Source of the DNA: Sodiomyces alkalinus F11
Lineage: Eukaryota; Ascomycota; Sordariomycetes; Glomerellales; Plectosphaerellaceae
Direction of reading: 5' to 3'
Length of the DNA stretch: 64,000 bases
Assembly: GCF_003711515.1 (NCBI RefSeq)
Contig: NW_021167080.1
Location: forward strand, 841,200-905,199
Part shown: one piece after another, positions 8,790 to 31,775 of the stretch
How positions within the stretch are numbered: the stretch's first letter is position 1
Layout: each line of letters begins with the position of its first letter
The notes under the pieces: generated by a model
The model's database searches: none
The model's input: the letters and a program-made list of their open reading frames with translations, nothing else
Told to the model about the DNA's origin: nothing
Position numbers and translations under genes: made by a program

Positions 8790-10778
8790 ATTATATCGGC
8801 CTTTTTTCGCGCCCGTGTCCTTTTCGTATACTAGTATAAAGGCCCGTTATTAGACTATACCGGGCCGTGCTTCTCCTTAAACTCGTCGAGGGCTTATATC
8901 TCCCGTATACTCTTAAGCGGTTTCTATATTAGTTATAAGTACCCCTTCTATTATACTAACACCTAGCGGACCTTACAATAACCTCGCCTTCGGGTATAGG
9001 TATAAAGGACTTCCTCTATTATATATTCCTCCTCCTTATATAGCCTTTCCTGGATAGGTAGCGGCTAGGGGTCTATTATCGCTTACCCTAATAGGGGGTT
9101 ATAGTCGGCTTACCGTAAAAGATCCACGTAAAAGCGGTTATAGATCTATAAGGAGATATTTAGCTTTACAATATACGAGTAAATACCCTTTATAACTTTA
9201 TACTTATAGTAGAGCTAGGTAAGTTGCTTTAATAGCTATAGCGAGGAATAGTTACCGATATCTAACTATATAAGGTTATCCTTTTCGAAACTCTTAGCAG
9301 GATAACGCTAATAGTTCGCTAATTCCTCCTAGCGTAGTCATACAACGGCTATCGTGGTTTAGGCGAATTAGGTAGCTTCCTAAAAATAACTTCGTAGGTC
9401 CTACGCGGAAGCCTCGCGCTTATCAGATAGCGTTGTCTCATTAACTTAAACACGATCTCTATAGTACCCGTATTATAGGAAGAACGGGCATATTTAGATT
9501 ATCGAGTTTACCCGGTTATTTAAGGCTAGTTATACAACCGGTAATAGTGTATTCTAATTATCTTAGGCGTAATAGGTATACGCCCGTAAGTAGGCTTAGA
9601 CCTCTTACTTAATACGTTTAGGACCTTTATCCGTTTAATAGTAGTATACGGTACTAAGTTATTATTTAATACCCGTGAGTTGATAAAAGTATCGCTAAAA
9701 GCGGCTAGTCTAGTTTAACCCTGTATCGTTAATAATAGACTTTAGTATTCCGTGGAACCTATAATAGTATAATAAGAACCGTTTAGTATAGGCTTTAGTA
9801 TTTATAGTATCTATCGCTTTAAGTATTACCGATTATAAGAGTCGGTTAATAATTACCTATCGGTATTTATACTTACTTTCGCGGGTAGGTAATAAGTCTA
9901 TTATAAAGTCTATCATAATATTATAGAAGATTCGTTTTAGTATAAGGAGTAAGCGTAATAATCCTCTTTTTACACCCCTTTATATATAGCTACCTCGGTA
10001 TATATCGTAATTCCACACGAATCTTTTAATATCTTAATTTATACTAGACTAAAAAAAGTAACGGGCGACTAGGGTAATAGTATTATCCCTACCTAGGTAT
10101 CTGCCGACTACTAAGTTATAGATCGCTTATAGAAGGTGGCCTTATAGCGGGTGACTTACTCCGTCTTTGCTATCCCTTAGTATTTATAGGCGGTCTTAAA
10201 ATATTAGCTATCCTTAATCGATTTTATACTCCGCGATCTATATTTTAAGCTTTAGCTTAGGGGAAAAGCTCCTCTCTCCTACTATTATTACGGCGAGGGC
10301 ACCTTAATAATATTTATCGGTGGCCCTAGCTTTATCATATAATTATTAGAGGTCGGGGTTTATTTTAAAGACTATAGCTAGCTCCAGTAATATTACTCTT
10401 ACTAGGTATATCCGAGGGGAGATAGCTATATCGGGGATTATCTAGATATACCTCCCCTGCTCTTAGATATTACAAGAGTCCTTAGGTATATCTTATTTTT
10501 AATATAAGAGCATGTCGGCTATAATATTATCGGCCCCTTTTTCGTACTGTAATACGAAGTCGTATTAGGCGAGCTCTATTACCTAGTGATTTTAGTATTC
10601 GGTTAGGGCCTTTTTAGTTATAAAGTATTCCAGTACCTTATAATTAAAGTAAATCTAAAATTAATCGCTACTTAGTAGCTTAGCTTTCTAAATCTATAAG
10701 TAGTCTATAATCGTTAGTATCTCCTTATCGTGAATCGGGTAATTATACTCGGCGGAGTTAAGTTAATACGAGTAGTAT
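8790..10778 (-). pseudogene. Gypsy element C pol, 3' half: RNase H end, integrase, chromodomain
   Basis: Minus-strand reading from 10778 gives NSAEYNYPIHDKEIL and KVLEYFITKKALTEY (RNase H, 10740-10570), then GADNIIADMLLY, then the integrase: SHPLQGHLL-type zinc region, MIDFIIDLLPTRE (first catalytic Asp, about 9900), FHGILKSIINDTG (second Asp, about 9740), and a QLSTVYYYQTD-like box before the Glu region. A chromodomain follows at about 9040-8850: EEEYIIEEVLYT, a remnant of VKWKGYPxxxxTWEP, and LDEFKEKHG. Chromodomains direct integration of chromoviruses to heterochromatin by binding methylated H3K9. The 5' part of pol continues at 31776-32211 after the inserted element E. Many RIP stops are present. 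Confidence 0.85.
10774..10778. repeat. Left target-site duplication of element E
   Basis: agtat (or gtat, depending on which base is assigned to the LTR) is repeated at 31775-31779. Joining the flanks at this point restores an uninterrupted RNase H frame of element C. Confidence 0.8.
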
Positions 10779-11135
10779 TATAACCGCGCAGATGCGGCTT
10801 TGGAGTGGTTTAGCAGGTGGTTATATGACCCCCTTTTTAAGGCTACGGGGTCCACCTCCTATATATATATTAAGGACAGGCGCCGGATATCCCTATTAAG
10901 GGACTATCATATAATCATTATCCTCTTTTATAATTACTTATTCTACGTTTAAGGTATCCTTCCAGTTTAATTTACGTTGCCCGGATTAGAATAGTGACTA
11001 CTAATCTACTTCTTTACTAAAGGTTATAGTGGTATTAGTTATATTTTAGTTATATATCGTGGTTTTACTAGACTAACCTCTTTATCTAATCTTTATCTTA
11101 ACGATCTAGAGCTACTAAGTCTTTAGCCAGTTATA
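10779..11135 (+). repeat. 5' LTR of element E (357 bp)
   Basis: It starts TATAACCGCGC (TGTAACC before RIP) and ends CCAGTTATA (GTTACA before RIP), so the ends are inverted copies of each other. It has the same length as the 3' LTR at 31419-31775. Confidence 0.88.
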
Positions 11136-11138
11136 ATA

Positions 11139-11152
11139 TAGTGCTCGGAGGC
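11139..11152 (+). promoter_or_regulatory. Probable primer-binding site of element E
   Basis: The sequence tagtgctcggaggc lies three bases after the LTR. With the RIP change undone in its second base it begins TGG, as a site complementary to a tRNA 3' CCA end must. I cannot name the tRNA. Confidence 0.5.
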
Positions 11153-11950
11153 GGATTTATTCGGCGTCCCTAAAGTATTCTAACCCTAATTAGAGTAATA
11201 GTGGCGTTTAAGGGAGGTTCCGGCCCTCCTAAACGGACTATTAGTTAATAACCCTAGGAAGAATATAAAGATAACGACTAAGGAAGGATTTAACGCTTTA
11301 AGACTAAGGGGAGATTTGCCCAAATAAGATTAGGAAAAGAAATAACTACTTAGGTAAGAGTCAAAGAACTATTAATACTCTTAATTATAAGACCCGCCGC
11401 CACGGAGGTAGTAATTATAGGAACGGAAAAAACCGATTAGATCGCGATAGAGTTAGATTCCGGATATAGAATAGACTCGATAAGGGGCTTATAACCCCTA
11501 CTACTAATTAAAATAGATTCTCGTACGACGGCGAAAAAAGGATAAGACCGCCGAGAATAGCTTACCCGGATTAGGGTAACTAAACCCTAGTCGACCTAAT
11601 ACAAAGCTAATACCGAGCGTAGGAGCGAAATAACGATACCTTATAAGAGGACCCGATAGTCTAGTAAGGACCTCTATAGACCCCGTAAGCAGGTCATGAT
11701 ACTTCTTTACGAGGCTTAGCGGGTAATACTTTTAATATTAAATATCCGTGAGTATAGCCCCTTTACTAATAGGTAATCTCCTAATCGTGGGGGGCCTTTT
11801 CCTTTAAGGTGAGTTAGAAAAACTAGACCCCGAAGATAAGTATCACGGAGTAAAACCTAGGACCGCCCGCTTATTAAAGACTTTATCACACCTATTAAGA
11901 CGAGATAATATATATAATAACCTGGCTAATATCTAGAATACTTATAGGAT
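11153..11950 (+). other. Leader region of element E
   Basis: No coding frame recognised between the PBS and gag. The sequence is rich in ta, gga and cta runs, and no repeat stands out. Confidence 0.4.
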
Positions 11951-14540
11951 CTTCTTACTAGATGGTTAGTTCAAAGAACCTTACCCTAAACGCCCTAACC
12001 CTATTATTATTATTCGCTTACCCCCTTATACTTATACCTAAAATACTATAAATACTTAGAATTAGTATCGTAAGCCTACCCCTGTTATCGTCGTTAGCGA
12101 CTCCGACGATAAGGCTCCCTCGTTTTACTGCCCCTAATTAGGGGAACCACGATATCGGGGCCACGGCCTTACCTCCGCCCGCTTTTAGGCCGACTACTAC
12201 GTTTACCGCGGCTCTGACTACTATTTCGATAACTACCCCTAATACTGCCCCCGGATTAGCCTTTAGATCTGCCCCTGCCTATAGATCGACTACTACCCCT
12301 GCCTACCCTATTTTTATTACCTAGCCCGCTTTAAACGCTCCTACTACCGCCGCTGCTAAGCGTTAGTAGCCCCCTATTACCGCTAAAGACCTAATTAAGC
12401 TGCTATAAGCCCTAATAAGCCGTGACTAAGAGAGTATTATCGCCGAGATCGTTAAAGCCCTGCCCCCTGCTACCGCTACGTCAAGAGCACCCCTAAATCC
12501 CCTTACTACTAAAGCTCCCCGCTTTAGTAGTAAGTCACTCTTTATATTCCTTTAGTAGTATAATAACTACACTAAGCTTCACCGCCTTAGTGAAGCCGAT
12601 AAGATCACCTACGTTAACCTATACACGGATACGGCTATTTGTCCCGCCGTCGAGCGCCTGGTTAAAGAGGTTTAAGCCGCTAAAGGTAGTTAGTCTACTT
12701 TAGTCCAGAAGCTCGTTAAAGAGTACTTTGATCTAGATCCTAACTACTAACTTAACTTCTCTTATAAGGTTTATTAGCTTCGAGTAAAATATAAGACGTA
12801 TAAGATCAATAGTGTTTGTTAGGTTAGGGACTTACTATAGTAAATCACTATTTAGAAGGCTAAGGCAGAGCGGGTCCAAGGCACTTTTATCGAGGACTCC
12901 GAGCTCTACGGTATCGTCCTTACTATTCTGTATAGGGATATCTATATATTTATCGCTAATAAGCTTAAGATTTAAGGCACCGACTTAAGAAAGATAGTTA
13001 AGAGCTATAAGCTGCTTTTAGACCTACTACGCGAGTAGTCTACGGATATCTAAGAAGTAGAGGGTAAGCCTATAGATAAGGACGCTATACTAGGTATAAC
13101 TAAGTCTAATCAGCCTAATAGCAACGCTTTCCAGCCCACAATCTTAAGGCGGCCTACTATAGTCTAGGAGTCTATAGCCTCTTAATCGGATATAGATAAG
13201 CTCGCCGACCTCCTCGAGAAGTATACTATTTCCCTTATCTATAATAGAGCTAAAGGCGTTAGGGGTATTACCGCTTAAGTACTCGCCCTATTTAAAAGGA
13301 TAAGTATAAAGAAGGTCTAAGCCCTCCTCGCCACGAAGTCTAATCTAAAGAACGCCTTTTATACCGTCCTTAAGCACGCCCCTTAGCCTATAATAACTAC
13401 TTTAGTGTATTTCGCCACCCCTAATTAGGCTAATAGTACCGCTTCCTAGCCTAATAACGCCTAGTATACCGAGGAGATCTACTATAGAGGACCCCGCCCT
13501 AAATATAATAACCGGCGTAACGATAACCGCCCGACCTAATAACACGATAACTGCCTAGGATAGTAAAGAGGTGCCTAGAATAATAGCTAGCCCCCGCTAG
13601 CACGCTACTACAACTACGGCTAAAAAGGGTATCGGAGAGATAACTACCCTATTCTAATCCACGATACCGTCTATAACCTAGTTAAGTAGGAGTTCCCCGC
13701 GTATTTAGTTATAGATTAGACCGGTACCTAGGCAGCCTACCTAAAGAGCGAGCTACGAGTTAACGAGTACTGGCTATACTAACGCCTTATACTGTATTAG
13801 CTAGCTACTAAGCTCTATAGCCGATTTAAGGAGCTTATAGACCTCTATATCAAGGCCTTCTAGCCCGCTACCCTCCCCTATAAGACTAATAAGACTAATA
13901 GGCTTATAATTAAGTATATAGTTAAGCAGGTATAGAAGTAGCAGACCGGTCAGAGTAGTTAGGCCACCTAAGCCACTTAAGCCTTAAGGGTTACTAAGGT
14001 CACGGGATCTATTAATTTTATTACTACTAGAGTATATACTATATCTATATCGCGACCTACCTCGACCGAACCCTAGGACTCTCTTCGTACTATTAGGAGC
14101 GGTAGAGTTAGTAAACCCACGCCGAAAGTAGCTGTTTCCCTTAATTAGGCCGTTCTATAGACCCTATTAACTCCGGAAAGCTTTTAAAGGGTTATAGAGA
14201 TAGTTAACGATACCGATATAGACCATAGTCTAACCCCTAATTCGAAAGCCCCTATATCTAGACCCATTACCACCTTAACCTCTACCCGGCCTGCCTTATA
14301 AGCCTCGGGTTAGAAGGATACCCTTAATTTATTTAACTAGGAGGCTATTAGATAGAAGGTCCGAGAAAAGAGCCTAAAGCACCTTTTAGAGATAGAGGTT
14401 AAGGTTCCTATAGTTTACCTCCTCTTTACTAATAAAGCTATCCTCGCGGACTACGAGGAGACGCTAAGGTTAATCGGTAGCTAGGTAAAGCCTCGTAAAG
14501 TTATCCGCTTAACCCCTAAAAAGGCCTTTTTTATAGACTC
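11950..14540 (+). pseudogene. Element E gag
   Basis: One long plus frame remains if TAG/TAA are ignored. After a Pro/Ala/Thr-rich N-terminal region (12160-12500) comes the capsid-like part, with FLQQYNNYTKLHRLSEADK (about 12550) and YTDTAICPAVERLVKEVQAA (12620-12680, first TAG read as Gln), a form common in fungal gypsy gags. Near 13606-13650 it reads YYNYG, KGYRRDNYP. This is a CX2CX4HX4C knuckle with its Cys and His turned to Tyr by TGC to TAC and CAC to TAC. Gag builds the particle and binds RNA. The frame runs on towards the protease. Confidence 0.75.
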
Positions 14541-14599
14541 CTTACCCCTAGGACCCGAATATCCTATATAATTTACGAATACCGCGACCGCTACCCCTA

Positions 14600-17500
14600 C
14601 GCCTAATAGTGCCCTATTGATTACGCCCGCCCCGATAATTAATAAACTAAAGCCTCCTACTATTTACGCTAAGTGTATAACGATACGGGTTAGCCTAACT
14701 AAGCGAATAGCTAAGGCCTACCTTACGGAGGATTGTTTTTACGTTGTTATCGATATAGGAGCCGTCTTTAATACTATTCGGCTAGACCTCGTAGAAAAGC
14801 TAGGATTACGGAGCCGTATCGGGAAAAGTAATATCGCGATTAAGGGAATTCATAATATAGATAGGGTAAACTGCGTAGGATATCTAAAGGAGCACCTCTA
14901 GGTTAGGGACTAGTATAAGAAGGTCTATTTCGTGGTAATCGAGGGAATAAGGCCTAGGATACTTCTTAGCCTGCTATTCTTACTCGATAATTACGCCTCT
15001 TTTACCTATAAGGACGGATAAATCGATATAGACCTTACCTATAGGGATACCTATATTATTATCCCTATCGCTAGTAGGGAATAAGTCGATAATCGCCCTT
15101 ATAAATAAAGCCAGCCTAAGTTTAAAGAGGAGGAGAAGCGTTAAAAGGAGGAGGATTTAATCGATCTAAGTATCGGATAATAAGGGGAGGACGGCGTCCC
15201 GTATAGTTAGTCCGGGGCCGCTACCTTAATATCAAGTAATAATAAGACTAGCGGTTCGCCCGACTAAGGGGCGAAAGAGAAGGAGGAGGCGAGGGAGGAG
15301 AAGGAGGAGAAGAAGAAGAGCGATAATAATATTTTCTTTTATTTAGATAATAAGGACGCTACTGCTTTAGTAGCCTTCCTATTTACGGAGGAGGTAAAGC
15401 CCTTAACGAAGAAAATTATATAGCCTTAAGGGCGATACCACGAAATTAGGGCTAAGGATATAAGAGGTATATCGCGGAGGCTCCCTATATAATAACTACG
15501 ATTATATAATAATAACTAATTCACACTAACTACTTATCTTTTTCGACTTTTCTATACCACTATTAGCCTAATTACCCTAATAGCCTCTTAGTCTTATATT
15601 TTCGAAAGAACAGGATAATATAGGATAATTCCTAGATAAGAGCGCTCAAGGCTCTAAAGAAAGAGGAGGATAGTATTACTAGTATAGCCACGGGTACGAC
15701 GAGGAGGCTATAGTAGCCGAAGAGGAGGAAGTCTTAGGATCTTATTAAAGAAGCATACTATCCCCCTAATCCCGAAGGCGTCTTTACTATATAGAAGCCT
15801 AAAGCTCTTAAGGTTTACCCTCTTAACGACGTTCTGTCTAATAGAAGTATCCCCGATAAAGACCCCTACTAAAAGAAGAATATCCTTGTAGAAATTAAAG
15901 AGGAAGACTAGGAGCTAGAAGATAAGCGGTTTATTAGCCTAATTATACCGAAGTTTTCTAAAATTATACCCCGTTCGCGCCTTATACCCGAAAGACTCCA
16001 CGCTATCCTAAAGACCGTCGACTACTTAACCCCTAAGGAAAAGGAGCTCCTAATAAAGGTCCTCCTAAACCGCGAGGCAGCTATTACGTGGGACTAGACT
16101 AAGTACGGCCGCCTTAACGAACGGGTAGCCCCTTTATAGAAGGTTCGAGCGGTTTCTTATAAGGCGTGGTAGGCGAAGGGGATCCTTATTCTTAAGGCTT
16201 TAGAGTCTATAGTCGTGCAGATAATAAAGGACCGCCTTAAGAAAGGTATAATCGAGGAGAGCCACGTAGCCTATTATAACCCCTGGTTCCTAGTTGAGAA
16301 GAAGGACGGTAATATACGGCTTATTAACTCGGCTACTAAGATTAACGCAGTAACCCTTTAAGATACCTTTTATACTACTTAGGGCCGACGAGTTTACTAA
16401 GGATTTCGCTATATTTAAGCTTATATCCCTCTTAGACCTCTTTTCCGACTATAATTAGGTTACACTTAATAAGCAATCTCGAGATCTAACTACCTTTACA
16501 ATTATTATTAGACTCTTTAGGATATATACCCTTCCTTAAGGGGCCACTAATTTACTGGCCTAGTGTATACGTATTATAACCCGTATCCTTTACGACCTTA
16601 TTCTCTAATACTATAGACCCTTTATTAACGATATTATAGTAAAAGGACCGATAACCACCTACGAGGATACCCTAATTAGACTAAGAATTCGCCGTTTTAT
16701 AGCCGAGTATATCGCTAATATCGATAAAGTGCTTCTTAATATAGAGCTAACTAAAGGCATTGTCGTAGGTATTAAAAGCTAGTAGTATTAGAAAGTAGCA
16801 ACTATTATAGGCTATATCTATAGCACTAATAGTTATTCCCCTAAGCAGGCTAAGATAGCGAAGGTCTAAGAGTAGGAGAGGTATAGTATAGTTTCTGATA
16901 TTTCTTCGTTCCTCGGTCTTACCACCTTTTATAGAGTCTGGATTTATAAGTTCGCTATTATCGCTGGACCCCTAACCGACCTACTACGGAAGAATACTAC
17001 CTTTAAGTGGGAGGAGCCTTAATAACACGCTATAGACGCCCTTAAGAAAGCCCTTACTATTACCCCTATCCTAATCACTATCTAGTATAGCGAAGGCGTA
17101 GGAGTTATCTATATTATCGTCGACGCTAGTATAGATAGATAGGGTAGAATCCTCGGATAGTACGTTAAGGATAAGAGAGCCGTGGTATAGTACGAAAGCG
17201 GACGCTAGTCTCCTGCGGAGAAGGTCTATAACGCTAGTAAGCTAAAGCTAAGGGGTGTCCTAAAGACCCTTCGGCGCCTACGTAACTACCTTTATAGGGT
17301 TTATTTTATCCTTAAAACCGATACCTAAGCCCTCCTATCCTAGTTAAAAGGATCTACTACTAACCTCCTTAATATCTGAATTACCCGATAGCGCGCCTGG
17401 ATCCGGCTTTTCGACTTCGACGTTAAGTATATTAAAGGATCTAAGAATACTATAGCCGATAGACTCTCCCGGATACCCGGAACACCCTCTAATTAGACTA

Positions 17501-19196
17501 ACGACGATACCGAAGGAGACCTAGATAACTTTATAGATAATAGAATCTTCCTCACGGAAGCCGAGAAGTAGTTTAACGACCCTACCCTAGCCGACGATAT
17601 CCTCGATAAGGACCTTACTTAGAGTTAGTTTTCCCGATAAGTAGCTACCTTTTTAACGACCTTTTATATGCCTAGAGAAATAGATCCTAGGGAAGCCCGT
17701 AGAGTTAAAGACAGAGCCACCCGTGTATTCCTTAAGGATAGACGACTATAGACCCGAGTAACTAAAGCCGATTCGACCCCTAAACGCTACATTAACGATA
17801 AGGATACCTAGGTTAATCTAATTAGGAGAGCCTACGACGAATCCGGATACCGAGGAAGGCAGGGCACTTACTATCGCCTCGCTGCTAATTACTTCTAGGA
17901 TAGTATCTATAAAAGCGTTTAGAGGTTTATCGAGTCCTATTCTGAATATCAGGCCCGCCGTAGCCATTCCTAGGAGGACCCCCTAATCGTAATAAGCCTG
18001 CCCGAAACCGCCCTCCCTTTGACCTAGGTTAGCCTAGACGTTTAATATCTTTAAGGGTAGTATCTTATAAAGGCTCGCTATATATTTATAGGTTAGGGTA
18101 AGGCCCGACTACTAAAGAAGAACACGTCTAAAGCTATTACCTTATTCCTGTACAAAGATATAATCTATAGGTATAGGCTTTATATAATCCTCCTTATAGA
18201 TAGAGGTCTAGAGAATAAGGGTTATATAATCGAGCTAAACCATCGCTATAGGACTACTCGGAAGCTCGCCTCTGCCTACTACCCCCGCGCTAATAGCCTT
18301 AATAAGGTTAGGTATAAGGCTATTACGCACGCTCTATCTATCTAGTCGAAGCTTTACCCTAGAGCCCTTTATAAGATCCTCCCGATAGTCCTTTTTGCTA
18401 ACCGTATAACGGTAAGAGCTTCTACTAGCCGCACCCCTTTCTTCCTTCTACACGGCTATAAGGCTATTACCCCGATTAAAACGACCTGCCTAACCTAGAG
18501 AGTACTAGACTAAGGCCGCGTTAAAACCCCTAAGGATAAGATAATACTTTAGTTAAGGGCTTTTACCTAGCTTAATACTAACCGACGAGCTGCTCTTACT
18601 ATAATCACTAAATAATAAGGACGACGGATAGCCTATATTAACGTTAGCCGTGCCCGGGTACTCCGTAAGTAAAGGCTATAAGTTAAGGATTTTATACTGG
18701 TTTACGATACTAAGAAAGCTATCGATATAAGCTATAAGGCTAAGCTTAACTACCGCTAGAATAGCCTATATCGTATCCGAAAGGCTAATCACGATAATAA
18801 GTCCTTTATCCTTAAGACTCTTACTAGGGAAGAACTAAAAGGGATTACTTTTACCGCTAACCGCCTAAAGAAGGTTATTAAAAACGACGATAGGTACTAG
18901 GAGCCTAAGGACTAGACTATACTTAAACGGGACTATAGCGAAGAGCTTAAGGTTACGTACCCTGCCTAAGGAGCGCCTATTGCCGAAGAAGTTACCGAAG
19001 CACCCCTTTTACCTAGCGAGGACCCTACGGAAGATACTAGGGCCGAGGATAACGTTAGTTCCCTTAATTATACTATTAACGATATTTTACGCCGCTCCGA
19101 GAGACTAAGAGAGTTATTAGGGGAGTATTATAAGAAGCTAGAAGAAGAGTTAAAAAAGGTAAGGGAGTCTAGTACCGTCGAGGTATAGATTCTATA
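14600..19196 (+). pseudogene. Element E pol: protease, RT, RNase H, integrase (Ty3/gypsy type)
   Basis: The protease carries VIDIGAVFNTI (active DTGA with T to I, 14743-14775) inside a 94-codon stop-free stretch at 14617-14901. The RT includes IIEESHVAYYNPWFLVEKKDG (about 16250-16315, read from ATC at 16249), the box P*GATNLLA for PxGxTNAPA (about 16540), and FINDIIVKG for the YVDD site, Asp to Asn (about 16620). RNase H ends with NTIADRLSRIPG (about 17450). The integrase zinc region reads YDESGYRGRQGTYYRLAANYF (17830-17895, both His to Tyr), and the core gives SLDV, then LLIDRGLENKG (second Asp, about 18200), then a PRANSLNKV box in place of the usual Glu motif (about 18290). RT precedes integrase, so this is gypsy. 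I see no chromodomain. The C-terminal part is charged and ends near 19196. Confidence 0.82.
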
Positions 19197-19729
19197 ACGC
19201 CTAGACTTTAACCCGAGTAAGTATAAGGATTATACTAGCGAGCTGTATTTTATTCCTTATTATTATTTTCCCTAATTTCCTTTATTTTTAAAGCCTACAC
19301 TTATTAGGAGGCTAGCGTGTAGTCTTAGAGCCGAGGGTAAATAGAGCTAAGTCTCTTATCCATCTAGAGTCGCGATATACGCTAGTATAAAAGGCGTAAA
19401 CCTATAAATAATCTTCCTAACTACTACCCTAGTCCGTTTCTTTTTTTAAACTTTTACCTTTATTACCCTAATTAGAGACACTATAAACCTATCCAGACAT
19501 ATTTCCCCGATTAAAAGACTTTTCCCTATATTTATTATTTATTATATTTATAAGTAAGCCTAACTACGTGGACGTTATAAAGATAAACCACTATACACTC
19601 TCTTTTCTATAATAAGTATAGGTTTCTTTTATTATAATCTTAAATTCTTCACTTCTATTCCCCTAATCACCGTATAATTTATTGGACCTAAGCTAAATTA
19701 CACCTGGTTCAATATAAGCTACCTATTCT
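19197..19729 (+). other. Element E spacer downstream of pol
   Basis: No frame recognised. This spacer joins 26400 onward once the LINE is removed. Pyrimidine-rich patches at 19430-19480 and 19620-19670. Confidence 0.4.
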
Positions 19730-19744
19730 ACGGAAGGGAGTTAT
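19730..19744. repeat. Target-site duplication of the LINE (left)
   Basis: acggaagggagttat, 15 bp, is repeated without mismatch at 26385-26399. Confidence 0.92.
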
Positions 19745-21290
19745 TATTACTATTATTATTAATCTTACTCCTCTATCCTGACTAATCTACAGGAGCCTTC
19801 CTAGGCTATACGGTCCTTCTCGGGTGGCTATAGAGGGGCAAACCCGGGTAAAACTCGGGGAAAACCTTTATACACTTCCTTAGGTGGAGAGGTGCCACTG
19901 CGGGGCCGATATAGCCCCGGTTCTTCCCCGTTACGTATCTGGATCTTACCTCCAGGCTAGTGGCTAACGGGAAGTAAAGTAGGCTAGTAGTTAGGTAAGT
20001 TAGCCTAAGCTAATCTTTATCGGTAGAGCGGGGGCTAAGGGGGCGCTACCGTGCTACCGCTATACGGCGGCTACGGCTCTTTAGCCTTAGTCTCCCTGCG
20101 TCCCTCGAGGATTATACTTTTTATTCCTTCTATTCGGTTAATAAAGAGAGTAGGGGGGTAGGCGCCTCCTGCCTCGCCTGGGTGGGTTCCTGCTATATCC
20201 GGCGGTAGGTAGGGGAATAAGGCTCTACCCTGTTATAAGAATTAGATCGTTAATATCCCCTAAGGCCTTCGTGCCTTAATCCTCCCTCTTCTTCCTATAA
20301 CGCTAACGATTTCATTATTGGTTTCCTCCCCATCTATTCCCGTTTACGGTCCCGCGGGTTTATCGTTACGGCTTATACTGACTAGTAAACCCCTCTAGGA
20401 TTCTTGTCGTTTTCCTATCGTAGTTTCAACTATAAGTGTCTCGCGGGTAGCGTCGCGGTGGCGTGGCGGTATAGAGTTAACTAGGTAGTATAGTATCGAT
20501 CTATATATATATATAAGTAAGTAATAGTAGTAGCCTAATATAAGTTCTTTTCGTGGCGTAATGGTGCCTCTACGGTAGCGTGCTAATAGTCGTAGATATC
20601 TTCTCCTAATAATAACGCCACTACTAATAATAATCGTAACCGTTATAAAAAAGGTTCGATTCGGGTTATACCGTATATCCCCGGTAGTGTTAAGGCGGTA
20701 CCGTAGTGGCTAATATAGGGTAGTTATATACGTTATAGTAAGCGTTTAGGTATATACCTAAACGACGTAGAGGCCTGCTTTAATACTATAGGAACTAGTA
20801 TAGCTTGTTTTTAATAAACTAATAGTCGGCGTCTATATAAGGATATAAGTCGTACTAGTGCCGCTATAATGCTCTAGGTATGCCTTAGCGATATATCCTA
20901 ATTATCTTACTAGGTCCCCTCCGCTACTAAAAAGCAGTAATAGCGTCTTATGGATCTCTATAATACGTATATAGCGGTAAAGGCCGCTAGTAGTAACGGT
21001 GTTACTGCTATAAGCGTCCCCCTTTAGTACCGTGGTAGTCCCCTTACTAATAAGCTTTTAGGCTAAGGATCGCCTAGGGATAGCGTCCCGGTCTTTTAGC
21101 CGGGCCCTAAACCGGGCGTTACCTTCCGGTCGCGGCCGTAGCGGCACCGCGTCGGCAGAGGTATAGGAGTTATCTTACTAGATAAGGCGTTTAGAGGGTA
21201 AGATAGACCTGATTTTAGAATACATTATAAGTGGCCTCCTTTCGGCCTTATTACGGCCCCTGGCGGCGGTGGTTAGCTAACTAGTCCTTA
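19745..21290 (-). other. LINE 3' region
   Basis: No coding frame recognised after the end of ORF2. It contains a short tatatatatata run at about 20497-20512 and, at the very end, the simple repeat that forms the LINE tail. Confidence 0.45.
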
Positions 21291-24200
21291 TAGGGCTTTA
21301 AGTATATTAAGAGTGGTGTTAGCACTACCGAGGGCGATAAAGACGATAATAACTAGTAGCGCCCTATTAGTGCTATGCTGATACTGCCGGGGTCCCGGCT
21401 TATAGGACCCCCGTTAATAATCCGCTAGTTCGCTATACTATTCTATCCCCGCTCCGGTCTCGCTTCGGTATCGTTTTTATTTTTATAGGCCTCCGTGACT
21501 TTAAGGGTAAGGCGAAAGTCCTTAAGCCTTTTCCGTTATAGGAACCACTTAGCTATCGTCCCGGCTTCGGTATTATAGTCTAGTGCGTTATATAAATCCC
21601 CTTTAGTCGTGAGTAGTCTCCCCACGGCACCGAAAAGCTCTCTACGCTTTTCCTCGGTTATGTCCTAGCACTAAAGCACTACGTGCTCCGCTATTTCTGC
21701 CCCCCTAGTACCGTAGGGGCACCGCGTGGTTAGGAATCCCGGTACCCTCGCTTTTACTAAGAAGGCTTATAGGCCTAGCTTTTCTAATCTAATTTAGGTA
21801 AGTGCGGTACTCTATAGCTTTAGGAGTCCTCTATATTTCCGGAGGGAGCGGTGTATCGGGGGGCGGCTTAGTGCTGCTACGGTGCAGGTGTAGGGCCTCC
21901 GTGCCTTTACCTAGGTTCGACCCTATTCCCTTATAAGGGCTTTCCTCGGGGCCGTGTTTCCAGCCTAGGTCGTTAGGGCGTTAAGTTAGACTATCCACGC
22001 GAGGGCTGTGTAGGTTCTATAATGCCGATTCGGTGCTACTAAGGCTCTCGCTACGGCGTATACCCCGGCTAATATCTTATCCTCGGTTCCCTCCTCTTAT
22101 ATCCGGCGGACCTTCCGGGCACATAGGCTTAAGAGGTATAGGTTAAGGGGGGGGATAAAGGTCTCTCTTTCGAGGACCTTAACCGGTATAGCTTTATAGG
22201 CTCCGGCTACTAATTAAAGGCACCGGTTCTATACTGTTATAAGTGCCGCTACGGGGCTATACCGGGGGCTAGCCCCTATCTTATATATAGTTAAGGTATA
22301 ATAGGCGATTACTAGTCGTATTACTATAAGGTATAGTCTTCTTACGTCCGCGAAGCTATACCCCTACGCTACTGCGCTAAGCCTTAAGAGGACGTATATT
22401 TAGGTAGTTAGGCGGCTTTTTATCTTTTTAGTATTTTATCGGAAGTCGAGCTTCCTATTAAGCTAAACGCCTAAGAACTTTATCGCCTCCGTTACCGGCA
22501 CCGAAGTTGTATTAAGGTGAAGCGGGGTGGGTAAGGGTTAGCGGGACTTTATAAAGGGGATATAGACACACTTAGCTAGTTCGAACTATAATCCGCTCGC
22601 TATCTCCTATTCTAAGTATACCCTTTATGCGGCGGCGAGGCGTTACCGCGTCTATACCTCCGTCCTACTAAAGGCGATAATATTTATATTATCGGTAAAA
22701 CCTACTACTATCGTTTTAGGGACCCTTTTTAGCTCTTCGTATAGAGTAGAGATATAGAGGATAAAGAGGATAAGGGAGATATGGGAGCCTTACGGTATAC
22801 CCCCGCGGAGGTACCGCGGGGGGGCCGTTTCTTTATTAAGTAGTAGCTAGGCTATATAGTCCCGGAGGAAGCTACTAATTAGGGTATTAAGCTACCGGGG
22901 GTAGCCTTTCCTTTTAAGTACCTTAATAAGGCGGGAATAGGGGATAGTGTCGAAGGCGCCTTTAATATCTAGTTAGAGTATCGAAGCGGTGCCGCTATAG
23001 GCCTAGCTCGCCCTTACGGCCTCCGTGGTTCTTTATACTACCGTCTTTATACTTCACCCTATCCGGTTACCTGTTTATCCCTCCGGGAGGAGCCGATACT
23101 CCTCCGCTACGGTCACGATCCGGTTAGTAAGTATCCCCTTAAGGACCTTACCTATTATACTAAGGAGTAATATCGGTCGCTAGCCCTTTACTATCCTATA
23201 GTCGGCCGGCGGCCGGCCTTTCTTCTTTAGGACTACCACGGTAACGTGGCGGCACCTTTTCAGGTAATAGCTCGCTTTAAGGCACGCTATAAAGATAGCA
23301 CTAAGTCTTTAGTATAAGGGGGGTCTATATACTTTTAAGAGCCCTACTAGGAGTCTATCGGGACCTAGTACCGCCTAGGGTTTTATCTTCTTAAGGCGCC
23401 CCTATATATCCGCTATAGTGATATCTTAGCGGATATCCTACCCTGGGGGGGATTCCGCGCCTAAAGGCCTAGGGACGGTAAGGAGGGGGGGGGGAAAGAA
23501 CTTCCGGTTTAGGACCTCGGCCTTCTCTACGTGTATAGTTACCGGGTAAGCGCTATCGTCTCGGTATAATAGTAGTACTAATAGGGGGTCCAGTAGTACG
23601 CCCCCTTTAGTTCGTACCTATTTCTATAGCCGCTAAAGAAGGCTATCGTCCTTCCCGGTTAAGTAGAGTAGGTATCGTTAGTATATCCGTTTCGCTACCG
23701 CTATAGCCTTATCCCGGCGCCCCCCGCTTCCTAAAACTCGTCCTAAAGGTTCCGGGACTTCCTGGATATATATCTACGGTAGAGGCGCCTTACTTCCTAG
23801 GTAAGGTTAGTTAGCTCCGTGTTCTATTAAGGGGTGGATAGGCGTTTAGGGGTGCCCTTACGGCGGCGCGGCGCGGCCTTATCGGCTATAGTTATAAGGT
23901 CTGCTATTAGGTTATTTAGTGCTAAGTCGATATCCTTCAATAATATAAGGGGGCCGGTCTATTATAACCGCGTAGTAGTAAGCTGGGGGACCTATAAGGG
24001 GGTCGAAGTCTTTTTAGACCTAGCGGGGCCCGGCTAGGTCCCGCGGTAGTATCGTCGCGGTAATTAGCGAGGTATCCGTCTTTATAAGGATTTAGGCCGT
24101 CTATAAATAGTAGTTAGACCCGATAACGGTCTTATCTAGGCCGTTAAACTCGTAGCAGAGCCCTTATATTACTTATATAAGGTCGATAGTGCTAGCACGC

Positions 24201-24700
24201 CGGCCCGGGCGGTACTATATAGGTATTCCGGGGGGGGGTTATTAGGTTAAGGTTCTACCGGGTTATAAGGGTAAATAGGGTATCGGCTTAGGGGTAATAC
24301 TATAGTAGTTATAACTATAGGGGGTAGAATAGGTTAAAGTCCCCTCTAAGGATATATCGGCCCCGTAGCGGTACCGTATCGAATATATCTTATAAGGGCG
24401 TATTCTAGGGGATCCTTACTAACTAGTAGTTCTCTAAGTAAATTAACTAGATTATAAGGGTATTATCTCCGGTCCCGAATATAACCATATAGGTATTGTA
24501 GTAGGCCCGCTACGTCCATGTATATAGCGGGTGTCTTTTATAGATATATAGAAGGGCGCGGCCTCCTCCTTAGATTAGCCGGTATACCCCTTAGGAGGGG
24601 TATATAGGGCTTTTCGTAAAGCGGTTAAGGCCGGGTTCCTAAATTACTATCACGTTATACTCGGCTCGGCACCGGAGCGGTAGCTCCCGCCGCGCCTAAC
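21290..24700 (-). pseudogene. LINE ORF2: endonuclease and reverse transcriptase
   Basis: Minus-strand reading gives an apurinic-type endonuclease with RGDFNLFYPL for GDFN (about 24330), LNLITPPRNTY (about 24250) and GSNYYL for the GSDHxP site (about 24110). The RT follows with LDIKGAFDTIP (22978-22941), an RRGIPQGSPISPILF remnant (about 22790) and FTDNINIIAF for the FADD catalytic box, Ala to Thr and Asp to Asn (about 22700). Downstream comes VPGFLTTRCPYGTRGAEIAEHV (about 21750-21690), like the Cys/His tail of Tad1-clade elements, then AKWFLQRKRLKDF near 21510. ORF2 nicks the target and copies the RNA onto it. Multiple RIP stops. I could not confirm an RNase H domain. Confidence 0.82.
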
Positions 24701-24745
24701 TCCTCCCTATATTCCATAAAAGGACGTGGATTTCTATTCATTAAA

Positions 24746-24762
24746 GGGGGGGGGGGGGGGGG
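24746..24762 (+). repeat. Run of 17 G
   Basis: An uninterrupted G run lies between ORF1 and ORF2 of the LINE (C run on the coding strand). Such runs are prone to length error in sequencing. Confidence 0.9.
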
Positions 24763-24779
24763 TTAAGATAACGTACCCG

Positions 24780-26150
24780 GTATAACCGGGGTCTGGCTCT
24801 AGGGTTCCTACTACGGTGCCTTATTAGCCCTACGGGGGACTATATAGGCGCTTATCGGGCCTGGTATCGGGGAGCCCTCCTATCCCCTAGTCCTTTTCGG
24901 GGGCCGACCCCTACCTTTACGGAGGGGTTAGTTCTAGTCCTAGGCGATAATAATCGGGGGAAAGATCTACGGCTACCGCGGGTGTACCGCTTCGGTTTAG
25001 CGGGTAATATTATAGTCCCTGGCTCGGTACTTATACGCTTCGCGGGTTTTCTCGGCCTCTTTCTTTAGTAATCGGTATAAATGGTTAAAGGTATTATAGT
25101 CTCCGGTATAAGCGGCGTAGCGGCGGGAGCGCCCCGGCGTCGTAGCTTCGTAATATCCTAGGCCCTCGGGGTGCGCTGATTTAGGCTTAGCGTAGTAGCG
25201 GTATACCCTCTCCGCTATAGGGTAGCCGTTTACTCGGTAGCCGAAGTATAGACACTTATAGCACCTTCGGGGCTAAGGTCGGGGTCGTATAGTTTATAGA
25301 TATAGCTGCCCCCCTTAGAGAGGAGGGTATTCCGGGTAAGGCTCGCTGCCCTTTCCGGTGAAGCCGATTCGATAAGGAGGAGCGCTACCCTACTGGTACC
25401 GCGGTAGGGTACCCGCTATCGTGCTCGGATAATTTTTACCTCGGGGTTTATATCCCGTAGGGATACTAGCAGGTCTTCTTCGGATAGGGCGTTAAGGACC
25501 TCCTAGGGGATAGCCTTAGCCAGCGCAGGGTAGGTGTATACGGCTAGGGTGGCTCCTTTACTAAAGGCCTTCTTAATCTATTATTTCTTATAGGTAGCCT
25601 ACTACTATACCCTTTCGGTAAAAGTAAGGTAGATATCTCCGCTCGGCAGCGTCCGTGCCGCTACGGTATTATATTAAGTGGTCGTGGCGTTTATAGCTTA
25701 GATAATCTCCTTTAGGGTCCTATCCTTAAGGGGCTAGTCTTCGGGGAGGGTTCCTTAGCGGATAATTAGTTCCCGGTAATGCCTAGCAGGGACCACTTTA
25801 GGGGGTGCGGGGTCCCGCGGCGGTGCCGCTATAGGAGCCCGGGCTACGATATTAGCCTAGGTCTTTTTCGTGCCGTTTATCCCTTTTCGGAGTTCCTCTC
25901 GGATAACGTGACGGACGGTAGCGTGCAGGTACGCTAGCGGTATCGCACCGGCGTCCTTACGGGTACTACGTATCGTGATTAGTTCCTCTACTAGCTCTAC
26001 GACCTATTCGATCGTGTTCCCGATAGCCAGTAAGGCCTGAATTTCTGACTTAATCTTAGTTACTCTCGGTTCTAGGGGGCGCGGTAATCCCCTTTCGGTG
26101 TTATATCGGTTCCGCGCTACGTCCCGCCGCGGGCGAGGGGGAGAACACTT
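24780..26150 (-). pseudogene. LINE ORF1 with CCHC zinc knuckles
   Basis: On the minus strand near 25270-25190 it reads RRCYKCLYFGYRVNGYPIAE. This is CX2CX4HX4C with the first two Cys kept and the His and last Cys turned to Tyr. A second knuckle (RYYAKP, then HPEG) follows, and a third near 25130. Upstream is a long helical, charged region (26100-25400). Tad1-like LINEs carry such a gag-like RNA-binding ORF1. The reading is strong for the knuckles and weak for the exact ends. Confidence 0.7.
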
Positions 26151-26384
26151 ATATTACGAAAAGTGGGTCTATTATGAATTCTACGTCGTCGCAGTCGGGA
26201 TAATACTATCCCACGTTTCCTCCGGTTATACCGTAGCGCCGGTATTATAGTACCGCTACGATAGTATCCCGAGAGGGAGGCGGTGGTTATAATCTACGTC
26301 CCGGTGATTTTATCGATTTTACTTCTATTGCGCGCCTGTGGTTATTATGTTTATAATCTGCAGCCCAGGAGTGTGGAGTACGTG

Positions 26385-26399
26385 ACGGAAGGGAGTTAT
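26385..26399. repeat. Target-site duplication of the LINE (right)
   Basis: An identical copy of 19730-19744. Confidence 0.92.
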
Positions 26400-27300
26400 A
26401 GTCGGGAATAACTAGTATAAGGACGGTTACTAAGGGTATAATATAATTAAGACAAATACCGTTAAAGGCTAGAAGCCGTAAACCGTAAATCTCTCCTTTA
26501 CTAACCCTAGTATTAGTAACTTATTAAGTTCTTACGTTAATCTTAAAGGTCGATTTTAGAAGTATAAGAGCCACCCCCTTCCTACTACTTAAAGCCCCTT
26601 TTCCTGATCTCTATTACTAATCGCTCTCCCTATAACTAATATTATACCCCTATTCCCCTAACCACACCTATATATACTATCTTTAAGCCTACTATATGTA
26701 AGTTCCTCCTCTGGAAAGAAAAGACCAATACTATACCTATCACTAGAAGAGTAAGTTCAAGACACTAAGTTAACGGCGTTAAGAGCCCCGCTAGAAAAAC
26801 CCCGATAAAGAAAAACGTAATATCACGACGACGACGGCAGTAATAATAATAAAAACCGGAAAACCCGGGGATTCCTTAGTTTTATTAGCCTAATTAAGTA
26901 ACTACCGGCCGCTACCTATAAATCTTATTCTTCTTATAAGGGCTTTATCGGTAGATAGGCCCGTAGAGTCTACCCCTATTGGAGTAGAAAACGGTTCTTT
27001 ATAAAGAAGAGGAAAAGAAGAAGATAAGCCACGAGAAGACCTTCTTTTATACCGTTTTTTCCCCTAATGCTACTACCCTACCCTGCTTTCCTATATAACG
27101 GCTCTTTCTTACCCCTAACTACGCTAGAGACTTAGACTCGGAAATATACGTCGTTATAATTTACTACCCACTGCCCGATCCCTTCCTATTTCTCGGTCTT
27201 AGCTGCCCTATTAGCTATAACTATACTTCTATTCCCCTAATTACCGCGAAAAACACTTATTTCCCCCTTCTTTACTCCTGAACCGGTCCTTTTTTATATT
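26400..27300 (+). other. Element E, region between LINE and the unknown ORF
   Basis: No frame recognised with confidence. A purine-rich stretch occurs at 27000-27030. The string cttctattcccctaat occurs here (about 27226) and also at about 19655, before the LINE, which may be chance or a short duplication. Confidence 0.35.
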
Positions 27301-29120
27301 CCTTATACTCGGGGATATACACCTTGATTTCCCTACGCTAGATATAAGCCCCTACGGGAAGAGAAATCCGATAATATTTAATAGTCTCCCCCTTCTGATA
27401 CTAGGCGCTATCCTTAACCGTTTAGTAGTGGCTATCTAGTTTAGTCTAATACCGATATATTAGAGCTAGAACTATAGCCGGAATACTATCTCGAGCCAGG
27501 AGATCTTAACCTCACGAAGTATCGCGTTACTAGCGAGCCACCTATTAATAAATAGCCTTTATATTAATAATATAAACGCCACGCTAAGGGGACTATAAAG
27601 GTCGGTAACGGTCGTTATAAATCGACTAAGGCAGTACTATACTCTACTTAGGAGATAGGTTAGGGTAATTAACGCCCGGATACTTATTATCTGGCTAGGA
27701 GACCTCCTAATCACTCTATTAAAACTGTCCTCGGAGGGTATCGTCGCGATACGTATAGGCGGACTCGTGATATTAGCAGTTAGTATAGTCCGGGAACTCC
27801 TCGCTCTCCTAAATCGACACGCACTCGAAAAAAGGGTATATAATCTTATTATTAACCCGATTAGTTATAGCTATCTAATATTCCTCGTAGCACTAGCAGG
27901 GGACCTTATTAACGGTGCCGTATACCTAGATCAAAAGTGCCCTAATAGTATAAGGCCTTAAGATAATCTTTATAAGATATTCCCTTTAAGGGCTAGCTAT
28001 ATCCTTCGCTATAAAGATTTGACGACGAAAAAGAGGAGAGCCGTTACTAGCCTTTATCTTTATAAATAAGCTAACCTCGATATCCCTAAGGTTAAGAAGG
28101 GTATACTAGACCCGTTTAGTAATAGCCGCCTTACTTTTACTAGGAATTAACGACTATAGAAAGTCTAACTTGACGTACGATACACCGCCCTTATTAGCCA
28201 CTTTATACTAGCCGAGATAGGAGTTTACCTATAGGTTATTAGTCTCTTTATAATCCGATAAGGGTAACCTACGTAAGGAATCGATACAAACCTACCACTA
28301 TATCTATTAGGGTCACCCTAAAGGAGTACTCCTTACGGGCTTTAAGGGGTAAATAAGCCGCGGGCTAGAACCACGGCGTTAGCTTAATAGACTGCTAACG
28401 GGTAACGGCCTTCTTTCTTTTATAAGACATATCTTATTAAGTGTGCTGATTAGCCGTTTAGTCGTTATTATTACTGTTATTAGATTATTATAAGTGTAAG
28501 TAGCGGTTATATTCGTATCTGCCTCGATATTACGGTGGGAAAAAGAAGAAGAAGAGGAGGGATACCGCTAGAAAGCTCGCCCTTTATACTTAAGAGATTA
28601 AGCGATTAAGAGAGGCTATAAGCCTTATTACTGCTATGAATTATACAGACGGCTATTTAATTAAAGTAGTTATAAAGGGGCCTTTACCTGCTGCGGCCGA
28701 AGAGAGGGGTAATTCACTATTCCCCTTTTAGATCCTTTATTCCTAAATCACGGCTACGTCTATAACTAAATAACGCAGGAGCTATTTCGTCTAATCTTTT
28801 CGACTAATTAGAGCCTGGATTTTAATATCTTTTTCCTAATTAGGAACCTTCCTATCGGGTTAAAGAAGTCACTATCGTAGTAACTAAGGCACGCCTCCTT
28901 TAACTAACCGAAAAGACTCCTTTATAGATAGTAGCTAAGTAGTAACGCCTACTATAAAGGAACCCTCGAAAAGAAGACTATCACGGAAAAAGGCACTTTC
29001 GAGCTTATTAGAGGAGGATAAATATCCCTCGACGTCGAGGTCTAAGGATCTCTTTTCCTCTCTCTTCTACTCTTTAGTTTTCGACTAGCCATTACCCTCG
29101 GATATCACCCGTAACCACTA
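27300..29120 (+). pseudogene. Unrecognised degraded coding region in element E
   Basis: Plus-strand frames stay open over long stretches except for RIP-type stops. One runs through GDLLITLLKLSSEGIVAIRIGG into the 64-codon open stretch 27767-27961 (ELLALLNRHALEKRVYNLII, then VALAGDLINGAVYL). It is followed by FPLRASYILRYKDLTTKKRR (about 27985-28040), KKGILDPFSNSRLTF (28100-28140) and, in 28550-28680, RKLALYTQEIKRLREA and ITAMNYTDGYLIKVVIKGPL. It is rich in Leu/Ile, with a basic central part. It lies between pol and the Ulp1-like ORF, on the same strand, so it could be a second accessory gene of E. I do not recognise a family; more than one gene or introns are possible. Confidence 0.4.
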
Positions 29121-29261
29121 ATCTTTATTTTGTAAGTAACGACTTTTTCTTTTTCTTTTTAACTCCCTTTAACGCCCCTAGATCTAATCAGGCTAACTAG
29201 GCGTAATTTATACTTATAGTGGCTCTTATTTCCCTTTAGTACCGCTTTTCCCCCTCTTATT

Positions 29262-31396
29262 ATATACGTTACTACCGCTATAACTAACTATTAGGCTATA
29301 GCCCCTATAGGGAACTTACTTAAGCGGTATATTCAACCCAAAGCACGCGTAGTCGTTAAGTCTTATACTAGGAGCCGCGTAGAATATATTCGTAAGAAGA
29401 GTAGATAGCCTTTTCCCTTAACTAGCCTCCCCTACTATCTATTCGATGTATCTAATAATAACCCTCTCTTTTTTAGGTTCGCTATAGGCGACGAGGCTAA
29501 CTAATAGGCTATCTAGTAGCTTTTAGGAAGCGTGGAAGGGGAGTATTTAGGGGGAGAAGCTACGGATAAAATAACCTAGTTAACTCTAATAGTAAAGGTC
29601 TATAGGGATAGCGTTATATCGGCCCGAATAGCCATACTTACTGCCTAAAGAGTGTATAACGATATCTTTAAGAATAAGTGGTTAGAAAAGTCTACCCTAG
29701 AAGACCTGATTAGGGTAATAACCACTAAGTAGATTAGGGATTCTAGGCCTAAGGTTTAGATTAATAACGTTAACTTATAGGGATACGACGCGAAGACGCA
29801 GAAGTATAACTACCTAGATATTAGCGATAGGGACCTTTTCCGTATTATAACGAGTAGACTAATCCCCTTTATATATCACGTTCGAGGTAACCACTTCGTC
29901 GGCCTAATCTTAGATTAAGAAACCTGGGTTATATACGTATATAATAGTATATAGCTTAACGGAGGAGCTAAGAAGAGTTTACTAAAGAGCTTCTAAGGTG
30001 TTATAAGTTAGCTACGGTATATTAAGGCGCCTGAAAAGGCTATAGATAGCCTAATTAGAAAATTCTATATTATCTCCGGACCCTAGTAGAAAGATATATA
30101 TTCGTGTAGTCTATTCATTAGTAAATAGATTCGTTCTATTATTTAGGAGGGTTACTTATTTCCCGTATCCTTTAGGCTATATCGGCTATAGGATAGACGC
30201 TATTATACTACCGATAACGCTAGTTATATATAGTATATCCGGTATAGTTAGTTAAGCTATACACGCGAACTCTTCGGCTTCGGCTACTAGCCCGAGCTAG
30301 CTTTTAAGTAACCTACCCCGACCCCTAACCTAGCTCCTACTATTACTCCCGTTATAACCCCCTCCTATAATCCGCCTAAGATAACGGGTTTCAAGCCTAT
30401 TAATAAGAAATGGACGCCCGTTAACCCGCTTAAGGGACCGAAGACACTAAAGACGCCTAAGGCGCCCGAGACCCTTTAGACGACTAAGCAGAAGTCCCCT
30501 TCCCCTGATTAAGAACTAACTAAAGTCCCGATATTCGATAAGGATAATAGCGGCGCGTTCCTAGAACTAGGTAACCTTAAGCTTACCACCCCTAAGTATA
30601 AGAAGGTTACTAAGGAATACACGCCCCTAGCTGCCGAACCCTCTCCTATTATAATACCGCCTAAGTTTTATAAAGCCTAAGCCCCTACCGGTTCCCCTAA
30701 TCAGAAGAAGATAGAGCTAAAGAAGTAGCCGTAGCCCGCTCTTATTAAGATTAGTTCGGCTACTAGCTACTACACGTATAAGGGAGAGGACCTCGTTAAT
30801 GTTACCGTAAGGACCGATATACAGAGTAAGTAGGAGAAGGATTAAGCGTATTAAGGGTATAGTCTACAGATATCTCGTAGCCTACTATTCTATAGGCTAA
30901 TCGAGATAAAGAATATACCGTTCAGACTAAGCTACTATAGCCAGGAGGATTAGGTCCAGTTATTTAATAACCCTTATAGAGCCGCCTTATAGGATACCGC
31001 TACTAATAGTAATAAGTATCTCCCGCTATCGCGAGTAGTGGAGTAAGGAGGCTAGCGGCGTTATAATACCACTATCGAGTAGGAGGCAGATAAAGCTACT
31101 ACTAATTAGAAAGCTAAGAAGGCTAGCGAGCCTAACTATATAGTCGGAGGAAGAACGTTACGAAAGCGTAAGTAAAGGTATATATAGAGGATTAGGTAAG
31201 GGACGTCTTAAGGATATAGCCGATAAAAATAGTAAGGGAACGGTATATACGGAGGAACTAGAACTAAGAGGATCCCTAATCAGGTATACGTGGAGGACGG
31301 GGTGATTAGAGAAATAAGGGTATACGATAGCTCTATATTTAGTTTATTTACTTATATCTACTTATTTTTAGGAGTTATCTACGTTATAAGGGCGTA
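29262..31396 (+). pseudogene. Ulp1/C48-like cysteine protease ORF of element E
   Basis: A single plus frame of about 710 codons keeps the same phase from 29262 (ATA, ATG before RIP) to TAA at 31394 with no frameshift, only RIP stops. The N-terminal region reads IAPIGNLLKRYIQPK and SLPYYLFDVSNNN. The protease core shows GNHFVGLILD with the catalytic His at 29892, IYVYNS with Asp turned to Asn at 29943 (GAT to AAT), and a tag tag codon pair (Gln before RIP) 15-20 bases before YSC, with the nucleophile Cys kept at 30105 and the following Gly changed to Ser. His, Asp, Gln, Cys in this order and spacing is the Ulp1/SENP (C48) fold, which cleaves SUMO-like conjugates. The C-terminal half is Pro/Lys/Thr-rich. 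It sits downstream of pol and just before the 3' LTR. Confidence 0.7.
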
Positions 31397-31401
31397 AATA
31401 A

Positions 31402-31418
31402 GATAACTAGGGCCGTAT
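31402..31418 (+). promoter_or_regulatory. Possible polypurine tract of element E
   Basis: A purine-rich stretch (agataactagggccg) lies immediately before the 3' LTR. It is only moderately purine-pure. Confidence 0.3.
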
Positions 31419-31775
31419 TATAACCGCGCAGATACGGCTTTGGAGTGGTTTAGCAGGTAGTCACGTGACCCCCTTTTTAAGGCTACGGGGTCCACCTCCT
31501 ATATATATATTAAGGACAGGCGCCGGATATCCCTATCGAGGGACTATTATATAATTATTATCCTCTTTCATAATTACTTATTCTACGTTTAAGGTATCCT
31601 TCCAGTTTAACTTACGTTACCCTGATCAGAATAGTGACTACCGATCTACTTCTTTACTAAAGGTTATAGTGGTATTGGTTATGTTTTGGTTATGCATCGT
31701 GGTTTTGCTGGACTAACCTCTTGGTCTGATCTTTATCTTGACGATCTGGTGCCACTACGTCTTTATCCAGTTATA
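31419..31775 (+). repeat. 3' LTR of element E (357 bp), part not RIPed
   Basis: Direct repeat of 10779-11135. The stretch 31675-31755 keeps TGG, TGC and CAC where the 5' LTR has TAG, TAC and TAT. It thus shows the pre-mutation state and the direction of change. Confidence 0.88.

Follow-up and report, generated by a model that had tools for sequence, protein, structure and literature searches.

Can a retrotransposon flanked by long terminal repeats (LTRs) carry a gene for a Ulp1-like protease as a regular part of itself, or would such a gene be a passenger of a single copy? The question arises in a 64,000-nucleotide stretch of the Sodiomyces alkalinus F11 genome (contig NW_021167080.1, positions 841,200 to 905,199; the window), where an LTR element at 10779-31775 contains, between pol and its 3′ LTR, a frame resembling peptidases of family C48 (Ulp1). 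An earlier reading made from the letters of the window, below called the sequence-only reading, had assigned this frame to the element. We compared the locus with the other copies of its parts, all comparisons being made within this one genome (43.4 Mb searched). With a probability of roughly 0.7, we read it as a copy, inactivated by repeat-induced point mutation (RIP), of a high-copy Ty3/gypsy-like family with a cassette of two genes between pol and the 3′ LTR, one antisense and the other, diverging from it in sense orientation, for a C48 (Ulp1)-like protease.

RIP turns Gln, Trp and Arg codons into stops and does not make transversions. Its signature is strong in the window from about 2 kb on (TA/AT of 1.47–2.38 and (CA+TG)/(AC+GT) of 0.11–0.59 per kb), and only the first 1–2 kb resemble ordinary host sequence (GC 0.52–0.59).

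A former gene within an LTR family

The protease-like frame lies at 29262..31396 on the plus strand. The sequence-only reading had described it as an open reading frame (ORF) of about 710 codons; its 711 codons are in fact interrupted by 45 in-frame stops in the window copy, with no stop-free run of 100 codons. The frame is nevertheless kept across copies, which fall into two types: type A, including the window copy, and a diverged type B. For type A, we assembled 31 distinct copies (the window copy, L014-L042 and L049) and dropped blocks with more than 12% transversions. Sites with shared transversions were distributed 45/42/85 over codon positions 1/2/3 (p=4.3e-5), and the distribution with no blocks dropped was 60/67/99 (p=0.0032). 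The same third-position excess was found between the window copy and the type-B copy L045, with 97/80/151 transversions at positions 1/2/3 (p=3.5e-6), and the proteins of the two types share 190 of 452 aligned residues (~40%). Because third codon positions collect transversions, which RIP does not make, the frame was once a gene, and 29262-31396 is the remnant of a gene under past protein-level selection.

The type-A gene was found at 40 or more places in the genome and the diverged type B likewise at 40 or more. Among the best 40 matches to pol, the region downstream held the type-A gene in 15 cases, type B in 18, the antisense region only in one and neither in six, so that a protease-like gene followed in 33 of the 40. 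The distance from pol to the gene was 6.6–6.8 kb in 25 of these 33, the window's own being 13.4 kb with a nested long interspersed nuclear element (LINE) included. In 12 of the 40 type-A matches and four of the 40 type-B matches, the gene is followed by an LTR from the set of 40 listed, which starts 1.83–1.94 kb past the start of the match. The sequence-only reading had named two kinds of copies that would speak against its assignment, copies of the gene with terminal repeats of their own and short copies ending soon after pol. No inverted repeats were found at the cassette edges in 26900-31200, and in the seven copies that have lost a flank, no two break points coincide; of the six gene-less pol copies, the three that we fetched are type-B elements with losses at this place and do not represent a short family. 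Since the gene lies downstream of 33 of the best 40 pol matches, the cassette edges lack inverted repeats and the break points all differ, its being a regular part of the LTR family, as first proposed, is well supported.

An accessory gene pair in two versions

Between pol and the protease-like frame, the sequence-only reading had noted a coding region of unknown type. The region is coding, but the strand is best read as minus: we place there an antisense accessory gene of about 310 codons or more, with its core part at 27269..28198. Comparing type A with type B, the minus frame scored 79, 117 and 123 bits in the bins from 27346, 27586 and 27826, while the best sense frame scored 62, 93 and 84 bits. 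Fixed A/B transversions in the antisense frame numbered 40, 50 and 84 at codon positions 2, 1 and 3 (p=7.8e-5), and the predicted proteins of the two types are 38–52% identical. Sense coding of the 27–28 kb region was rejected because the minus strand scored better between the types; a point against the minus strand is the bin from 28066 (28.07–28.4 kb), where the sense frame is slightly ahead (60 vs. 53 bits). Searched against Pfam, the antisense gene had no match below E 0.063. About 0.5 kb of this gene's region is missing from the type-B copy L045 but present in four other type-B copies, L048, L051, L052 and L053.

In the stretch 28200..29261, which separates the two accessory genes, translations of types A and B resemble each other little at 28546-29260, whichever frame is used. 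Transversions at 28020-29250 have the bias of another frame (32/16/14, p=0.009), and the stretch is possibly coding in part; the arrangement of the genes on either side makes a shared promoter region possible.

Two deeply diverged versions of the gene pair occur on similar LTR and pol backbones, which are 87–93% identical between types A and B in the copies compared. Transversions between the window copy and L045 amount to 0–3% at 18.4–27.0 kb and over the final 700 bp, LTR included, but to 14–33% in most bins from about 27.1 to 31.05 kb. The jump in A/B transversions, from 0–3% to mostly 15–35%, places the exchangeable cassette at 27050..31050 and takes place over edges of about 100 bp; both edges come from L045 and the left one also from L048, which has an extra insert and for which only that edge was aligned. 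The last ~350 bp of the protease-like gene thus fall outside the exchanged segment. Two versions with sharp edges on similar backbones suggest an exchange of the cassette between backbones. Recombination during reverse transcription would be the simplest account, and fast evolution under host pressure may have added to it.

Both types also occur side by side in L024 (G000:C7, ~2300449-2303565), where one protease-like gene of each type lies on the same strand, with about 2 kb between the two; these are probably nested elements.

Resemblance to C48 peptidases and rival explanations

The catalytic residues of C48 peptidases, as aligned among the copies, occupy 29892..30107 on the plus strand (His 29892-29894, Asp 29943-29945, Gln 30087-30089 and Cys 30105-30107). 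Seventeen residues separate His from Asp and six Gln from Cys, a spacing that we take to equal that of yeast Ulp1. The layout of these four residues, proposed from the window copy, holds across the type-A copies; as read in the window copy itself, His and Cys are kept, Asp has become Asn and Gln a stop, and type B, as its letters now read, does not show the layout. Among the 31 type-A copies, the His site reads His in 21 and Tyr in 10, the Asp site Asp in 17, Asn in 13 and Tyr in one, the Gln site Gln in four, a stop in 26 (17 TAG, 9 TAA) and Glu in one, and the Cys site Cys in 24 and Tyr in seven. Of these 124 readings, 122 are the catalytic residue or a form one or two RIP-type transitions away from it.

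To search Pfam, we used 24 core sequences (22 of type A and two of type B) with stops written as X. PF02902, the Peptidase_C48 profile, was the commonest family, matching eight of the 24 (best E=4.1e-4, for a match given without a bit score), and four of the ten matches shown end at the same register of the profile. Other matches were Transposase_32 in two cores (E 0.073), CaMBD in one (E 0.024) and PP-binding in one (E 0.1). The profile check suggested by the sequence-only reading thus came out in favor of C48 as the commonest family, with the scores shown remaining under the curated cut-off and the window copy unmatched. When a structure model built from 24 rows was compared by Foldseek with 350,542 PDB chains, the top four matches were Ulp1, Ulp1, SENP5 and Den1. 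On this evidence we consider the sense accessory gene very probably related to this family, and we name it C48-like rather than C48 because the PF02902 cut-off is not reached.

In the genome, PF02902 is found above its cut-off at four host-type places among those listed, on contigs C1, C12, C2 and C11, which we read as Ulp2-, Ulp1- and Den1-like genes. These loci have a GC of 0.53–0.55 and are free of RIP mutation. No element copy is among the places listed by this search, presumably because stops and RIP conceal the copies. A tblastn search with the element core gave no match in three of the four host loci even at E 10 and a weak one at C11; a profile of the element gene likewise scored above shuffled controls at C11 only (11.6 vs. 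5.5 bits), which is too weak to tell the origin of the gene. The host-type C48 gene L012 (G000:C11:294915-295295, GC 0.53) has a motif, RGNHF...YDSL, resembling that of the element and is, given the weak score, a possible relative of the captured gene.

A number of results weigh against the C48-like assignment. The best PF02902 score shown is 18.0 bits against a cut-off of 20.7, none shown reaching the cut-off, and neither the window copy, whose accessory region matched no Pfam family, nor the nine type-B copies scanned singly have a Pfam C48 match. Sequence searches of the PDB with two profiles gave one match at E 0.42, outside the core, for one and none for the other, and a protein database search with 14 copies scored 7994 candidates with none at E <= 0.001. 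The structure model is poor (pLDDT, the predicted local distance difference test, of 34.5), and its top four matches are not significant (E 0.13–0.75). Two catalytic-site changes among the 31 type-A copies, Asp to Tyr in L023 and Gln to Glu in L034, are not of RIP type. No intact copy of the element is known and the evidence comes from one genome. The low profile scores, the lack of a database homologue and the two non-RIP changes would fit a chance resemblance, with the sense gene encoding something else, such as an env-like or a DNA-binding protein. We regard this as unlikely, given that C48 is the commonest family among the cores, that the order and spacing of the motifs fit with nearly all readings in agreement and that C48 peptidases fill the four leading Foldseek places. 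A more serious contender, still short of probable, is an accessory protein of C48 fold that is no deSUMOylase, with ubiquitin, NEDD8 or a polyprotein as its target or, chiefly in type B, a role as a catalytically dead binder. The ten type-B copies all have Tyr at the His and Cys sites and a stop at the Gln site, and at the Asp site only two have Asp and one has Lys, so that the type-B gene may have been inactive before RIP; a NEDD8 enzyme, Den1, is among the top four structural matches, and a large share of the 711 codons falls outside the protease core. On the other side, RIP itself makes Tyr from His and Cys codons, type A keeps these residues in 21 and 24 of the 31 copies, and three of the four structural matches are SUMO proteases.

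The remaining alternatives concern the history of the cassette rather than the protein. KDZ elements carry Ulp1-like genes. The available excerpts of PMC2836005 report Ulp1 domains for Ginger1 and Mutator elements, in line with what the sequence-only reading had said of DNA transposons. A separate DNA transposon of such a kind (for instance a Mutator-like element (MULE), Ginger or KDZ) could have brought the gene in by inserting into this copy or into the founder of the family. The recurrence of the gene in 33 of the best 40 pol contexts, its codon-level selection, the cassette edges without terminal inverted repeats and the seven unshared break points make this very improbable, and for the window copy a separate nested DNA transposon is mostly refuted; an ancient capture from a Ulp1-bearing DNA transposon is a possible origin of the gene. 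The difference between types A and B could also result from fast local evolution under host conflict instead of the exchange of a whole cassette. In line with this, eight type-A copies differ from the window copy by 6.7–7.1% transversions in the protease-like gene, compared with 1.4–3.2% in the 5′ flank (seven copies; L035 has lost it) and 1.4–2.4% in the 3′ part (seven copies; L041 has lost it). The transversion jump, however, takes place within about 100 bp, and the diverged segment includes the two genes together with what lies between them, a pattern more in keeping with recombination of old lineages; we consider local evolution as the explanation somewhat unlikely, while both processes may have been at work.

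Element structure, known systems and possible role

The two LTRs, at 10779..11135 and 31419..31775 on the plus strand, are 357 bp each and 91% identical, and 27 of their 32 differing sites are transitions. The 5′ LTR, with ends TATAAC...GTTATA, matches at least 40 genomic places, itself included, at 88–100%. Because copy L047 starts with TGTAAC, we take the TA terminus in the window as a RIP-mutated version of a TG start; the original end was presumably CA. The target-site duplication is GTAT (10775..10778 and 31776..31779). The 400-bp left and right flanks adjoin in other copies of the interrupted repeat, overlapping by exactly 4 bp at the four places checked (C2:37986-38385 / 38382-38785; C17:155311-155710 / 155707-156110; C1:3912583-3912981 / 3912978-3913381; C2:194890-195289 / 194491-194893), and therefore an insertion with a 4-bp duplication is fixed. 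The sequence-only reading had seen one LTR unit of about 14.3 kb, a duplication of 4–5 bp and continuity of the host repeat, and all three are borne out: the insertion spans 10779-31775 and without the LINE measures 20997 - 6640 - 15 = 14342 bp. In two further copies whose two ends we read, the target duplications are CTAT and GTAT. The older repeat interrupted by the element (e.g., G000:C2:37986-38785) is itself high-copy, the best 40 of 103 and of 92 candidates having been taken for the two flanks.

The LINE occupies 19745..26384 on the minus strand, matches RVT_1 (E=1.2e-19) and has a duplication of its own, as had been stated, read by eye as 15 bp (19730-19744 / 26385-26399). It splits the window element, lies outside the LTR element proper and is missing from all four element copies compared. 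A putative primer-binding site is located directly inside the 5′ LTR (11139..11156, plus strand); the genome contains 59 occurrences of its 15-mer core (11142-11156), of which 15 immediately adjoin an LTR among the 40 listed, and the five of these 59 places that we scanned contain no tRNA gene.

The RIP-degraded gag-pol region extends over 12300..18700 on the plus strand, with approximate ends set by eye. On the same strand it contains a protease-like stretch (14572-14901) with DIGA, read by eye as a former DTGA, an RNase H domain (~17008-17307; Pfam E=7.7e-9) and an H2C2 integrase zinc finger (~17812-17964; E=5.2e-4, below its Pfam cut-off). Copy L047 has the same two domains in the order RNase H, then H2C2, and the element pol gave no Pfam match for reverse transcriptase or the integrase core. 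The best reading of these domain matches is a gypsy-like pol and a Ty3/gypsy-like family.

In a limited literature search, we found no description of an LTR element with a Ulp1-like gene, and within that search the family differs from known systems by having a Ulp1-like frame among the accessory ORFs of an LTR element. In Botrytis cinerea, Boty-like Ty3/gypsy elements likewise have an antisense gene, brtn, between pol and the 3′ LTR; the available parts of their descriptions (PMC7264820, PMC8365987) mention no Ulp1-like gene, and we liken brtn to the antisense gene by position, not by sequence. Plant gypsy elements with additional ORFs include Grande, RIRE2, Retand and env-like ones, and the review text on them does not contain the words Ulp, SUMO or protease. 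According to excerpts of PMC2836005, Ginger1 and Mutator-like DNA transposons are also mobile with a Ulp1 domain, and the Ginger transposase is related to gypsy integrase; they differ in having terminal inverted repeats and, for Ginger1, the domain inside the transposase, whereas the element here has LTRs, gag-pol and a separate gene. The NeSL and Utopia retrotransposons share a Ulp1-like cysteine protease with it but are non-LTR elements of nematodes with the protease at the protein N-terminus (partial text of PMC4640811). The term Peptidase_C48 occurs 13 times in PMC8978399, on CACTA of Chenopodium; unlike our LTR element, that one is a plant DNA transposon.

How the cassette might act can be outlined conditionally. 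Template switching between co-packaged RNAs would swap cassettes, and the layout leads us to guess that a promoter located between the accessory genes could drive their expression. The protease would act on host factors by stripping off SUMO, or else a related modifier, a deSUMOylation role to which yeast work lends some support; this would lift SUMO-dependent repression, raising element transcription, or help nuclear steps. A target of the ubiquitin type or a structural role is also possible. According to the part of PMC8585004 available, yeast Ty1 RNA increases when SUMO conjugation falls through loss of Ubc9 or of Siz1/Siz2, and repression by the Nup84 complex concerns Copia and Gypsy Ty elements. 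The same source counts against a simple direction: Ty1 RNA also rises in ulp1 mutants, and since loss of Ulp1 function has this effect, the direction of a deSUMOylase effect is uncertain. The full extension of this scheme we hold as tentative and rather doubtful: a first LTR lineage encoding its own SUMO protease and an antisense regulator, breaking SUMO silencing with an exchangeable cassette at the env position that is swapped like retroviral env and diversified by the host.

Many of the extra genes of LTR elements lack a readable function, and the protease-like gene offers a testable biochemical role. With decreased SUMOylation derepressing Ty1 in yeast, as stated in excerpts of PMC8585004, a deSUMOylase of its own could be a direct counter-measure of the element. 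The same type of gene in Mutator, Ginger1, NeSL/Utopia and an LTR element would argue for SUMO as a recurrent battleground of transposons, and two versions of the cassette on one backbone would show that accessory genes are exchanged in a modular manner among fungal LTR elements.

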